NCBI GenBank assembly: GCA_944386445.1
Contig: CALXBD010000147.1
Coordinates: 1-43,551 of the forward strand
Reading direction: 5' to 3'
Source: an uncultured Clostridia bacterium
GTDB lineage: Bacteria; Bacillota; Clostridia; Oscillospirales; Ruminococcaceae
DNA: 43,551 nucleotides
The notes beneath the pieces were generated by a model that searched no databases, was not told the DNA's origin, and saw only the letters and a program-made list of their open reading frames with translations. Shown here piece by piece: positions 22,606-27,938 of the stretch (its first letter is position 1; each line of letters starts with the position of its first letter). Both the position numbers and the translations under genes were made by a program.

Positions 22606-24489
22606 ATGGGATATCAAATGGGCCGCTGCGATGTGGCGGTCATCGGAGCAGGACATGCCGGCGTGGAAGCGGCAATGGCGGCTGCCCGGCTGGGTGCCGC
22701 TACGATTTTGTTTACGCTGACGCTGGATGGAATTGCAAACCTTCCGTGCAATCCCTCCATCGGTGGAACTGCCAAGGGGCATTTGGTAAGGGAAATCGAC
22801 GCTTTGGGTGGTGTAATGGGGATTGCAGCTGACCATACGCTTATCCAAAGCCGAATGCTGAATATGGGGAAAGGTCCAGCCGTTCACAGCCTTCGAGCTC
22901 AGATCGACCGGCGCGCCTATCATACCTATGTGAAAAAGCTGCTGGAAGGACAGGAGAATCTGCGAATTAAGCAGGATGAAGTCACCGGCGTTTTGGTGGA
23001 AAATGGGAGAATTCGTGGGATTCGGACCCGTTTGGGTGCGGAATACGCGGCCGACGCCGTTATTATTGCGACGGGAACGTATTTAAATGGGATGATCCAT
23101 GTAGGCGAGGTGTCTTATCCCAGCGGACCGGATGGCGTTTCTCCGGCAACCGGACTGACGGCAGATCTGCAGCAGCATGGAATCGTACTAAGACGGTTTA
23201 AAACGGGGACTCCGTCCAGAGTCCATAAGCGAAGTATCGATTTCGACCAACTGGAAGAGCAAAAGGGAGATGAGCCAATTGTTCCCTTCAGCTTCGAAAC
23301 AACGGAGCCACTGCAGAATCAGGTGAGCTGTCATATTGCGTACACCAATGAAGAAACCCATCGGATTATATTGGAAAACCTGGATAAGTCGCCGATTTAC
23401 AGCGGCAGGATCCATGCCATTGGTCCCCGGTACTGCCCGAGCATAGAGGATAAAATTGTCAGGTTTTCTGACAAGCCCCGCCATCAGCTTTTTGTGGAGC
23501 CTATGGGAATGGATACCCAGGAAATGTATTTGCAGGGGCTATCCTCTTCCCTGCCCGAAGATGTGCAGATTGCTTTTCTTAGGACGATCAAAGGATTTGA
23601 AAATCTGGAAATTATGCGGAATGCATATGCCATCGAATATGACTGCTGTGATCCACTGGATTTGCGGGCAACGTTGGAATTTAAGGCTGTTTCCGGCCTT
23701 TACGGCGCCGGCCAGTTTAATGGGACATCCGGCTATGAGGAAGCGGCTGCTCAAGGTTTGATTGCAGGAATCAATGCGGCGCGTCAGACGCAAGGAAAAG
23801 AACCCATTACGTTATCGCGGTCCTCTTCCTATATTGGAACTTTGATTGATGATCTGGTGACCAAAGGGTGCTCTGACCCTTATCGCATGATGACTTCTCG
23901 GAGTGAGTTTCGCCTTCTGCTGCGGCAGGACAATGCGGACGAGCGTTTGACTCCTTTGGGATATGAGATCGGCTTGATTTCAGAGCAGAGGTATCAGCGC
24001 TTCCTGAAAAAGATGGAGCAGATTCGTGAGGAAAAACAGCGTGTTTCCAAGGTGAATGTCGCTCCGAGTCGGGAATTGAATGAATTGCTTGTTTCACGTG
24101 GAACAGCGGAGTTGATGACTGGTACTAAAATGGACGACCTGATCCGCAGGCCTCAGCTGAAGTATGACGATTTGGCTCCGTTTGATCCGGAGCGCCCGGA
24201 ACTGTCTTTTGCGGTTCGGGAGCAGGTGGAGATCCAGCTGAAATATGAGGGCTATATTCGGAAGCAGCAACAGGAAGTGGATGAACTAAAGCGGTTGGAA
24301 GGTCGAAAGCTTCCGGAAAATTTGGATTACGGAAAGATTTCCGGACTTCGTTTGGAGGCCCGGGAAAAGCTGAATCGGGTAAAACCCAGAGATGTGGGGC
24401 AGGCGTCGCGAATTTCCGGGGTGAATCCGGCGGATATTTCGACGCTGCTGATCTGGCTGGAGCAGCAGGAAGGAGAAAAGAATGATTGA
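22606..24489 (+). CDS. mnmG: tRNA uridine-5-carboxymethylaminomethyl synthesis enzyme MnmG
   Basis: A 627-residue FAD enzyme and partner of MnmE. The dinucleotide site is [21 protein letters not shown] near the N-terminus, followed by [31 protein letters not shown] and the [16 protein letters not shown] stretch are typical. AGGAG precedes the ATG. Its last eight bases overlap rsmG. Codons near 495-500 contain a perfect parS sequence, so the DNA has a second use. Confidence 0.97.
24090..24105. promoter_or_regulatory. parS site inside mnmG
   Basis: TGTTTCACGTGGAACA matches the ParB-binding consensus TGTTNCACGTGAAACA exactly when read on the minus strand. It lies within codons for LVSRGT of mnmG, about 6.8 kb from dnaA. 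Confidence 0.88.
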
Positions 24490-25233: not shown

Positions 25234-25268
25234 AATTTCTGGAAATTATTTCCCGCTTGTGTTATACT
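25234..25268 (+). promoter_or_regulatory. noc promoter with overlapping palindromes
   Basis: TGGAAA (25240-25245) and TATACT (25263-25268) are separated by 17 bases, with an extended TG. Two palindromes cover the -35 and spacer: AATTTC-TG-GAAATT (25234-25247) and GGAAAT-T-ATTTCC (25241-25253). These resemble halves of the Bacillus Noc site ATTTCCCGGGAAAT and could be an autoregulatory operator. Confidence 0.6.
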
Positions 25269-25304: not shown

Positions 25305-26117
25305 ATGGCGGGAATTTTTTTGAAGGAAAAAACCATTAATCGAGTGGTGTTGCTGGATATAGACGGAATTCTCCCCAATCCTGCTCAGCCGAGGCAGGAG
25401 TTCCGGGCCGGGGAGCTGTCAGAATTGGCTGCCAGTATTCGTGAAAACGGGGTTCTCCAGCCAATCACGGTGCGAAAAAATCCGGGAAAAGAGTATGAGT
25501 TGGTGTCTGGTGAGCGACGACTGAGGGCAGCAAAGGAAGCGGGATTGACGCAGATCCCCGCGGTGGTAATTGAAACAACGGCGCGGCAGTCTGCAATTTA
25601 TGCCATTTTGGAAAATGTTCAGCGGCAGGATCTGTCTGTCTTTGAAGAAGCCAGAGCACTGAGATGCTTGATTACGGAATGGGGCGTCACACAGGAAGAA
25701 GCGGCACAGAAACTGGGAAAGGCCCAATCTACCATTGCAAATAAGCTCCGTTTGCTGAATTTAACGGAGGAGGAACAAAAGCTGATTGTGGAAAACGGGT
25801 TAAGTGAACGCCATGCGAGGGCGTTACTAAAGATAAAGAATCCTGAGCAGAGAATATTTGCACTGAAAAGCGCCATTTCCAATCATTGGAATGTCAGCCA
25901 GTTAGAAAAACATGTGGAGAGGATAGATCAAGAATTAAAAGTTTCAAAGAAGGTCCCAAAACGGATATTTGTTGTAAAAGACGTGCGGATTTTTCTGAAT
26001 ACCATTAACAAAGCCATTGACACGATGAAGAATGCGGGAATTGCAGCGGAGGCGGTACGGCGAGAGGAAGACGGGTGCATTGAGTACCTGGTGAAGATTC
26101 CGTTGCGGAGCAATTAA
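25305..26117 (+). CDS. noc: Nucleoid occlusion protein Noc (ParB family)
   Basis: A 270-residue ParB-family protein. The CTP-binding motif GERRLRA is at 69-75. The four residues that switch DNA specificity between ParB and Noc are Gln141, Lys147, Asn152 and Arg169, with exactly the family spacing (6, 5, 17). Bacillus Noc has Gln, Lys, Lys, Arg and ParB has Arg, Thr, Ala, Gly, so three of four match Noc. Noc blocks division over the nucleoid. The N-terminus MAGIFLKEK is short; a membrane-targeting helix may be reduced. GGAGG precedes the ATG. It is followed by parA and parB after a palindromic spacer containing parS. Confidence 0.93.
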   Translation: MAGIFLKEKTINRVVLLDIDGILPNPAQPRQEFRAGELSELAASIRENGVLQPITVRKNPGKEYELVSGERRLRAAKEAGLTQIPAVVIETTARQSAIYAILENVQRQDLSVFEEARALRCLITEWGVTQEEAAQKLGKAQSTIANKLRLLNLTEEEQKLIVENGLSERHARALLKIKNPEQRIFALKSAISNHWNVSQLEKHVERIDQELKVSKKVPKRIFVVKDVRIFLNTINKAIDTMKNAGIAAEAVRREEDGCIEYLVKIPLRSN

Positions 26118-26163
26118 ACAAATAAGCCGGATGTTCCACGTGAAACATCCGGTTTATTTGTTT
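26116..26163. repeat. 48-bp palindrome with parS at its centre, also a likely noc terminator
   Basis: The left arm (26116-26139) and right arm (26140-26163) pair over 24 positions with one C-A mismatch and one G-U pair. The GC-rich core is CCGGATG...CATCCGG, and the right arm ends in TTTATTTGTTT, a fair T-tract. The first two bases of the left arm are the last two of the noc stop codon. The centre is a parS site. Confidence 0.85.
26132..26147. promoter_or_regulatory. parS site in the noc-parA spacer
   Basis: TGTTCCACGTGAAACA matches the ParB consensus TGTTNCACGTGAAACA at every position. It forms the centre of the palindrome described above. Confidence 0.92.
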
Positions 26164-26174
26164 CACGTGGAACT
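26159..26174. promoter_or_regulatory. Second parS-like site in the noc-parA spacer
   Basis: TGTTTCACGTGGAACT differs from a full parS (read on the minus strand) only in the terminal base. It is 27 bases from the first site, in the opposite orientation, and upstream of the parA promoter. Confidence 0.75.
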
Positions 26175-26189
26175 TTTTAAAAGAAGGTC

Positions 26190-26218
26190 TTTTAAAATAG
26201 GAAAAGGTGTGGTATAAT
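26190..26218 (+). promoter_or_regulatory. parA-parB promoter
   Basis: TATAAT at 26213-26218 with an extended TG before it; the -35 TTTTAA at 26190-26195 is weak, with a 17-base spacer. The parS-like site ends 15 bases before it, so ParB spreading could repress it. Confidence 0.6.
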
Positions 26219-26287: not shown

Positions 26288-27064
26288 ATGGGGAAAGTCA
26301 TCGCAGTTGCCAACCAAAAAGGCGGCGTTGGAAAAACAACCACGGCCGTAAATTTGGCAGCGTGTATCGGCGCGCGGAAAAAAAAGGTCCTTCTGGTTGA
26401 CATCGACCCCCAGGGTAACGCAACCAGTGGCATGGGAATTCGTAAAAAGAATGTTGCCCAGACTTCTTACGACCTCCTGATCGGCGAAGCTCGGGTGGAA
26501 GACGTCCGGGTGGCTACGGAATTTAAAAATATCGATATGATTCCTTCCAGTATCGAGTTGGCCGGCGCGGAAGTGGAATTGGTGGAAATGGATGACCGGA
26601 TTAACCGGCTGAAACTGGCTTTGGCACCGATTCGGGAAGCGTATGACTTTATTTTGATCGATTGCCCGCCTTCACTGGGCTTGATTACTTTGAATGCCCT
26701 CACGGCTGTGGACAGCATTTTTATTCCCATCCAGTGTGAGTATTATGCGCTGGAAGGGCTGAGCCAGTTGATGGCAACAGTCCGTCAGGTGAAAAAGCTA
26801 TATAATCCTGCCATCGAAATCGAAGGCGTCCTGCTGACAATGTATGACGGAAGACTGAATCTGACGACACAGGTGGTTGCTGAAGTCAAAAAGCATTTTC
26901 CGGGGAAGGTCTATAAGGCGGCAATTCCCAGAAATGTGCGGCTTTCAGAAGCACCCAGTTACGGACTGCCGGTCTATTATTATGATAAGTGGTCAAAGGG
27001 CTCTGTAGCATATCAGGAAGTTGCAAAAGAGCTTTTAAAAGCAAATGCCGGAAAGGAAGGGTAA
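26288..27064 (+). CDS. parA: Chromosome partitioning ATPase ParA (Soj)
   Basis: A 258-residue deviant Walker ATPase. The motif KGGVGKTTT is at 11-19, with the signature lysine at 11. DIDPQGNATSGMG and DFILIDCPPSLGLITLNALTA follow. It forms a DNA-bound gradient that moves ParB-parS complexes and, in Bacillus, also regulates DnaA. It lacks the long N-terminal HTH of plasmid type-Ia ParA. GAGGGG precedes the ATG at 26288. The parB start is one base after its stop. Confidence 0.96.
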   Translation: MGKVIAVANQKGGVGKTTTAVNLAACIGARKKKVLLVDIDPQGNATSGMGIRKKNVAQTSYDLLIGEARVEDVRVATEFKNIDMIPSSIELAGAEVELVEMDDRINRLKLALAPIREAYDFILIDCPPSLGLITLNALTAVDSIFIPIQCEYYALEGLSQLMATVRQVKKLYNPAIEIEGVLLTMYDGRLNLTTQVVAEVKKHFPGKVYKAAIPRNVRLSEAPSYGLPVYYYDKWSKGSVAYQEVAKELLKANAGKEG

Positions 27065-27065
27065 A

Positions 27066-27938
27066 ATGGCAAAAAAATCCGGCTTGGGAAAAGGTTTGGA
27101 CGCTCTGTTTTTGGATAATGATACCGGATCAGGCCAGGATGGCGGTGTGATGCTTCGATTGAGCGAGATCGAGCCTAATCGGAATCAGCCGCGAAAAGCT
27201 TTTGATGAACAGGCCCTTTCGGAGTTGGCTGATTCGATACGGGAACATGGGATCCTGCAGCCGCTGCTGGTGCGGCCGCTGGAGACCGGCGGTTATCAGT
27301 TAGTTGCCGGGGAACGGCGCTGGCGTGCCGCACGGATGGCGGGACTGACGGAAGTTCCTGCCGTGATCCGGGATATGAGCGAAACAGAAGTAATGGAATT
27401 GGCGCTGATAGAAAATTTGCAGCGTCAGGATTTGAATCCCTTGGAAGAGGCTTCGGGATATCGGGAATTGATGACAACCTACGGTATGACACAGGATCAG
27501 GTGGCAAAACGCGTAGGAAAATCCCGGTCGGCAGTGGCAAACTGCCTGCGACTTCTGTCAGTGCCGGAGGAAATTCGCCCGTACCTGGTCAGCGGCGAGC
27601 TGACTGCGGGGCATGTGAAGGCGATTGCCGCCATGGAAAACCGAGATGAAATGGTTCGCTTGGCCAAAAATGCGGTGGAAAAGGGCCTTTCTGTCCGGGA
27701 AGTGGAACGGCAGGTTTCCAAAAAGCCTGCAAAGAGTTCAGCAGATAGAAACGAAAGTGAGCAGAAAAACGAAGATCCGTTTTATCAGGAACTGGAACTG
27801 GCAATGAATACAGAATTAGGCCGGCGAGTGCGGATCCACGCTGGAAAAGGAAAAGGCGGTACAATTGAGATCGCTTTTTATGACCAGGAAGATCTGCGGT
27901 CAATTGCTTATCGCCTGGCCGGCGAAGAATCATTTTAA
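27066..27938 (+). CDS. parB: Chromosome partitioning protein ParB (Spo0J)
   Basis: A 290-residue CTP-dependent clamp that loads at parS. The N-terminus MAKKSGLGKGLDALF carries the ParA-stimulating Arg/Lys-rich tip. The CTP motif GERRWRA is at 82-88, and EN-QRQDLNPLEEA is at 116-129. The specificity residues are Arg154, Cys160, Ser165 and Gly182, with the same spacing as in ParB (Arg, Thr, Ala, Gly), so two are identical and two are small substitutions. This fits parS binding and separates it from the neighbouring Noc. GGAAAGGAAGGG precedes the ATG, and serS follows 15 bases later. Confidence 0.95.
   Translation: MAKKSGLGKGLDALFLDNDTGSGQDGGVMLRLSEIEPNRNQPRKAFDEQALSELADSIREHGILQPLLVRPLETGGYQLVAGERRWRAARMAGLTEVPAVIRDMSETEVMELALIENLQRQDLNPLEEASGYRELMTTYGMTQDQVAKRVGKSRSAVANCLRLLSVPEEIRPYLVSGELTAGHVKAIAAMENRDEMVRLAKNAVEKGLSVREVERQVSKKPAKSSADRNESEQKNEDPFYQELELAMNTELGRRVRIHAGKGKGGTIEIAFYDQEDLRSIAYRLAGEESF

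Follow-up and report, generated by a model that had tools for sequence, protein, structure and literature searches.

The locus described here raises the question of whether a single DNA segment can serve both as a loading site for the segregation protein ParB and as the transcription terminator of the gene before it. In the window, the whole stretch of 43,551 bases that was analyzed, noc is followed by a palindrome, a promoter-like site, parA, and parB, in that order, and parS lies within the palindrome. The original prediction had proposed such a dual use from this one sequence; the locus is examined below together with its counterparts in related species.

The end of noc and its palindrome

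All features of the locus lie on the forward strand. The noc gene (25305..26117) encodes a ParB-family nucleoid occlusion protein of 270 aa and follows a promoter-like site at 25240..25268 (TGGAAA and TATACT separated by 17 bases, with TG preceding the second hexamer), identified by consensus match only. The name first given to this gene is supported by DNA-contact residues of the Noc type and by an excess of Noc-type sites, yet the profile score of its product, 277 bits, falls below the NCBIfam TIGR04285 cut-off of 315 bits. Its helix-turn-helix residues were compared with the solved Noc structures 7ng0 and 7nfu, with which the protein aligns; the four Noc/ParB specificity positions, as given in PMC7383237, read Q/K/N/R by eye. 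Noc proteins are marked by Q, K (at 179 or 184), and R among these residues and by genomic binding sites of their own, and both are present here: Noc-type sites (WTTTCCCGGGAAAW, at most one mismatch) occur 27 times in the genome, against 1 for the reversed control.

Downstream, parA (soj, 26288..27064) was identified by the Pfam domain AAA_31 (E 5e-69) and parB (spo0J, 27066..27938) by its ParB_N and HTH_ParB domains and by alignment with 6t1f, in which the specificity positions read R/C/S/G by eye. Given the Noc-type residues of Noc and the excess of Noc-type sites across the genome, the site at the palindrome most likely belongs to ParB, and Noc would use others; binding of this site by Noc rather than ParB was judged unlikely on the same grounds. 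The putative promoter of parA-parB (26191..26218; TTTAAA and TATAAT separated by 16 bases, with TG preceding the second hexamer) is a consensus match whose −10 box lies about 40 bp beyond the last parS, and TATAAT is also present in 127 of 139 noc-parA spacers of relatives. At gathering thresholds, Rfam returned one tRNA only for the whole window (RF00005, 43350-43429), with no match at the palindrome.

The window contains three parS sites, where none would be expected by chance. The first, parS1 (TGTTCCACGTGAAACA, 26132..26147), fits the 16-bp consensus TGTTYCACGTGRAACA with no mismatch and occupies the center of the palindrome, as had been predicted. The prediction overlooked, however, a second, inverted copy, parS2 (TGTTTCACGTGGAACT, 26159..26174), which has one mismatch to the consensus, differs from the reverse complement of parS1 in the last base alone, and overlaps the right arm of the palindrome by 5 bases. 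The two sites are spaced 27 bp from center to center, and the 14-bp core of parS2 is followed by TTTTT (26174-26178). Both show the features of chromosomal parS, namely the consensus and an adjoining parAB whose ParB, with R and G among its specificity residues, is of the parS type. The third site (24090..24105), again without mismatch, lies inside an open reading frame at 22606-24489, presumably mnmG. Beyond these three, no further parS with fewer than two mismatches was found in the source genome, which is 86% complete.

The palindrome itself is much as first described. It spans 48 bp (26116-26163) around a center at 26139/26140; 22 of its 24 pairs are Watson-Crick, one is G-T, and one is a C/A mismatch, the fourth pair from the center and hence within parS. 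Its 5' end falls inside the TAA stop codon of noc (26115-26117), and its right arm ends in the T-rich stretch TTTATTTGTTT. It is the sole center in the window with at least 20 of 24 pairs, the runner-up having 18, and five first-order Markov copies of the window contained no center with at least 18. The 48-nt segment folds at −26.2 kcal/mol (z −9.2), a value equaled by 0 of 200 shuffles. A chance origin was rejected on the fold statistics and the unique center.

Since parS2 overlaps the right end of the palindrome, two mutually exclusive terminator hairpins are possible. Hairpin A (26116..26163) consists of parS1 with its outer arms and has a dG of −26.2; its core (26127-26152), with CCGG/CCGG at the base and AT-rich sequence outside, is followed by the U-rich tail 26153-26163, which is TTTATTTGTTT, and has a terminator score d of 16.1, a score built on coefficients of the literature. 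Hairpin B (26133..26173) pairs parS1 with parS2 in a stem of 15 pairs of mixed composition, is followed by TTTTT at 26174-26178, and has a dG of −22.9 and d=20.0. Each is predicted to present a stem-loop and a U-rich tract shortly 3' of the stop codon, as intrinsic terminators do. In minimum-energy folds of the growing transcript, hairpin A is present from 26152 onward, which suggests that it would form before B. An on/off riboswitch made of A and B is not favored, as both score as terminators.

Congeners and the survey of noc-parA spacers

Six other species of the genus (loci L002, L003, L004, L005, L006, and L008) separate the two elements. All six retain the inverted parS pair, at a center spacing of 33 to 37 bp, and none has symmetric outer arms around parS1. 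The outer arms are thus specific to the window species, and the pair is not. The arms are not supported as a conserved element: retention of parS with loss of the outer symmetry, which the prediction had named as its refutation, is seen in all six congeners, where the outer arms of the window have no counterpart. Hairpin B scores d=6.0 in L002, 23.3 in L003, −16.9 in L004, −18.2 in L005, 28.5 in L006, and 31.7 in L008; d is therefore above zero in four of six, or in three of six under the stricter tail rule of the survey scan, which requires more T and leaves L002 (d=6) unlisted. Failure in L004 and L005 is due to a poor T-tract. In the sister-genus locus L001, a single parS lies directly 3' of a separate terminator. 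The 48-bp palindrome is best seen as the elaboration, by one species, of an arrangement that is broader and recurs, with parS apparently serving as the terminator of the gene that precedes parA.

A search of the family with Noc gave a match in 212 of 297 genomes. The survey drew on 140 regions from the listed family matches, 55 named loci, and the congener loci; 210 loci with a Noc hit were reduced to 182 by removing incomplete copies and duplicates (the same last 150 nt of noc), and 43 of the 182 were dropped as having no parA start in the DNA retrieved. The remaining 139 spacers comprise 94 labeled as belonging to the family of the window and 45 named records without label whose Noc is at least 40% identical; of two copies the longer record was kept, so that members of the family, such as the six congeners, also occur among the 45. 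Terminators were sought up to 450 bp beyond the noc stop, and symmetry was counted for parS with at most one mismatch.

parS is present in 136 of the 139 spacers, and a predicted terminator (d>0) in 124, against 10 in one shuffled copy of each. In 43 of the 139, the whole of parS falls within a hairpin predicted to be a terminator on the noc strand, an arrangement referred to here as fusion; 38 of these have dG <= −10. When parS was held fixed and its flanks were shuffled in 40 sets, fusion occurred in a mean of 7.7 spacers (maximum 13), or 4.9 (maximum 8) at dG <= −10, so that terminator hairpins contain parS more often than its own sequence would bring about. The figure of 43 counts any candidate terminator; the best-scoring one contains parS in 31 spacers, and if parS were placed at random within the spacer, 13.7 of 123 would have it inside the best terminator. 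Among the 43 fusions, 24 use one parS as the apex of a hairpin with dG <= −10, 14 use two parS as the arms, and 5 are weak.

Several spacers show variants of these hairpins. In one group (L023, L025, L027, L037, and L039), a degenerate parS-like half within the first 60 nt past the noc stop pairs with the 3' half of a real parS and stands in for an intact second copy; L027 was counted as not fused, though its hairpin arms are nearly the same as those of its group. In L173, L190, and L209, the parA start lies about 785-795 bp past the noc stop, and a long hairpin resembling a terminator, with GGCCGGTCAGCC in common, ends about 150 bp past that stop, with no Rfam match at gathering thresholds.

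parS-only terminators have lower scores than the rest (n=30, median d 25.7; n=81, median d 36.6; p=6e-4), which leaves scope for regulation. ParB bound at parS, through loading or as a roadblock, might alter the stopping of RNA polymerase at the end of noc, in which case the level of ParB would set read-through from noc into parA-parB and hairpins A and B would be alternative states. The overlap of parS with the predicted stop point and the position of parA-parB directly downstream fit such gating. In P. aeruginosa, moreover, ParB represses the adjacent promoters at the intergenic sites parS3 and parS4 (PMC5521831), and there, as may be the case here, ParB binding bears on neighboring transcription; the difference is that ParB acts on promoters in that system, whereas in the window the DNA itself appears to encode the terminator. 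The lower score may, however, merely reflect the fixed sequence of parS. TATAAT occurs in the spacer of 28 of the 30 parS-only species, so that parA-parB need not rely on read-through, A and B are both terminators by score and thus unlike an on/off pair, and an arrangement found in only 43 of 139 spacers is evidently dispensable. Gating of termination by ParB is accordingly regarded as unlikely.

Outside the family, a sample of the phylum gave no fusion in 33 noc-parA spacers, of which only 8 had parS there. The T-run after parS was only weakly in excess in the phylum sample (36 of 299 genomes, against 24 of 299 for an A-run). Among 30 loci pre-selected for such a T-run, and therefore non-random, 16 had parS in a terminator hairpin with dG <= −10; seven of the 16 are located between rsmG and parA and belong to three other families, and a further one is found directly 3' of parB. 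In the genome of another family, eight exact copies of TGTTCCACGTGGAACA within about 1.5 kb (L266, 1212-2653) form a dense parS array.

Termination and symmetry as such

Tests of strand, replacement, and tree point to termination rather than symmetry as such. parS lies in a predicted terminator on the noc strand in 43 spacers, on the reverse strand in 19, and on both in 12; the exclusive cases number 31 against 7 (p=1e-4), and at d>20 there are 26 forward and 5 reverse. A separate terminator is found in 13 of 43 fused spacers and in 81 of 96 others (odds ratio 0.08, p=7e-10). The same shortage is seen in the 94 family-labeled spacers (13 of 34 fused, 49 of 60 unfused; p=3e-5) and in the 45 unlabeled ones (0 of 9 fused, 32 of 36 unfused). 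On a quick tree built from the single protein Noc, the fusion state changes 26 times. Across 18 independent pairs on this tree, the separate terminator differs in the direction opposite to fusion in about 7, in the same direction in about 0, and not at all in about 11 (median p 0.016, range 0.008-0.07). The high frequency of fusion in relatives, far above chance, and the loss of the separate terminator add to the scores of A (d=16.1) and B (d=20.0) in backing the proposal that one segment may be both ParB loading site and RNA terminator.

The position of parS within the spacers was also examined. Where a separate terminator is present without fusion, parS follows it at 92 sites and precedes it at 13, compared with 72 after, 18 before, and 15 overlapping under random placement. 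In the 127 spacers with TATAAT, 183 of 185 parS precede the last TATAAT. Such unfused parS, between the terminator and TATAAT, therefore lie in a stretch that is predicted to be little transcribed. Compensatory change in the five-species group of L023, L025, L027, L037, and L039 amounts to a single A-U/G-U/G-C series at one pair and is no better than in shuffles.

At least 6 bp of extra symmetry beyond the 16 bp of parS occurs at 26 of 200 spacer parS, against 0.39% expected, and this real excess might be taken to mean that ParB contacts an extended site. The arms, however, share little sequence: the first two flank positions, with 0.86 and 0.65 bits, are A/T-rich, and later ones carry 0.01-0.41 bits. 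The six congeners, moreover, have no outer arms like those of the window. An extended ParB motif was rejected on these two grounds and is considered highly improbable.

Among parS that lie in no terminator on either strand, 10 of 125 have at least 6 bp of perfect extra symmetry, where about 0.35 sites (0.28%) would be expected; some extra symmetry thus lies outside any terminator and is not accounted for by the terminator reading. It could have arisen as a by-product of mutation, with no function attached, if single-stranded parS folds into hairpins during replication and one flank is then copied onto the other by template switching. The diversity of the arms, with 23 different first hexamers among the 26 symmetric sites, agrees with such an origin. 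Such an origin predicts neither a T-tract on the noc strand rather than the other (26 forward, 5 reverse, at d>20) nor the shortage of separate terminators. Also against it, 0 of 139 parS upstream of the noc stop have at least 6 bp of extra symmetry, though coding constraint could be the cause, as 102 of the 139 lie in an open frame of at least 150 codons. A mutational by-product is very unlikely as an account of the extra symmetry.

Some sites combine symmetry and termination in other ways. In L018, a parS at +112 from the noc stop is flanked on both sides by a further 16 bp of perfect symmetry, and its left arm is the 3' arm of an upstream terminator, so that the two hairpins should be mutually exclusive. 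In L001 and L032, the T-tract of the terminator likewise forms the left arm of the parS symmetry.

Precedents, mechanism, and meaning

The closest precedent is provided by uptake sequences. In Neisseria and Pasteurellaceae, inverted USS/DUS copies form the stems of intrinsic terminators, for which evolutionary expediency has been proposed (PMC1852404). As suggested for parS here, a short DNA motif that has a different role is put to use as a terminator stem, and close, oppositely directed copies supply the two arms, with a T-tail completing the terminator, as in the parS pair (PMC1852404). Uptake sequences differ in being present in hundreds to thousands of copies, whereas parS is a rare ParB site. 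As the motif reads, USS is not palindromic and two copies are needed, while one copy of the palindromic parS can serve as the apex. The sites in the window resemble the parS of known ParABS systems in sequence (chromosomal consensus TGTTNCACGTGAAACA, quoted in PMC7022226), in position beside parAB, and in a ParB with R and G at the contact positions, and differ in that a terminator hairpin is predicted to enclose them. In the main text of the review PMC7022226, "terminat" does not occur as a word stem, and nothing bearing on parS as a terminator appeared in passages of PMC12779278 and PMC7414963. Among the matches listed in searches of the open-access literature, no report of parS as a terminator was found.

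The segment at the end of noc is probably a ParB loading site that has come to serve as the intrinsic terminator of this gene, a double use that many related species seem to have acquired independently. Termination in the cell, binding of ParB here, and the precedence of A over B are inferred from sequence. At the DNA level, parS1 and parS2 would load ParB. At the RNA level, the end of the noc transcript would fold into a hairpin containing parS, and RNA polymerase would stop in the U-rich tract, 5' of the promoter-like site of parA-parB. The stem common to the genus would be parS1 paired with the inverted parS2 (hairpin B), to which the species of the window may have added outer arms around parS1, creating a second, earlier-forming hairpin A that would pre-empt B. 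In general terms, parS would offer a ready-made stem that could terminate transcription when joined by a T-tract, by another copy in inverted orientation, or by some flanking base pairs, which may explain why lineages repeatedly make and lose the fusion.

A further step is doubtful: that where parS is the noc terminator, the arrival of ParB at this site alters whether RNA polymerase stops, so that expression of noc and parA-parB would respond to segrosome assembly and ParB loading would in turn be limited by transcription. A segregation site and a terminator in the same bases would bring ParB loading and RNA polymerase to one spot. The apparently repeated origin of the arrangement, with its 26 changes of state, supplies natural pairs of fused and unfused species in which to ask whether nearby transcription affects segrosome assembly. 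The recruitment of functional DNA motifs as terminator stems, known for uptake sequences, would thereby be extended to a second DNA signal.
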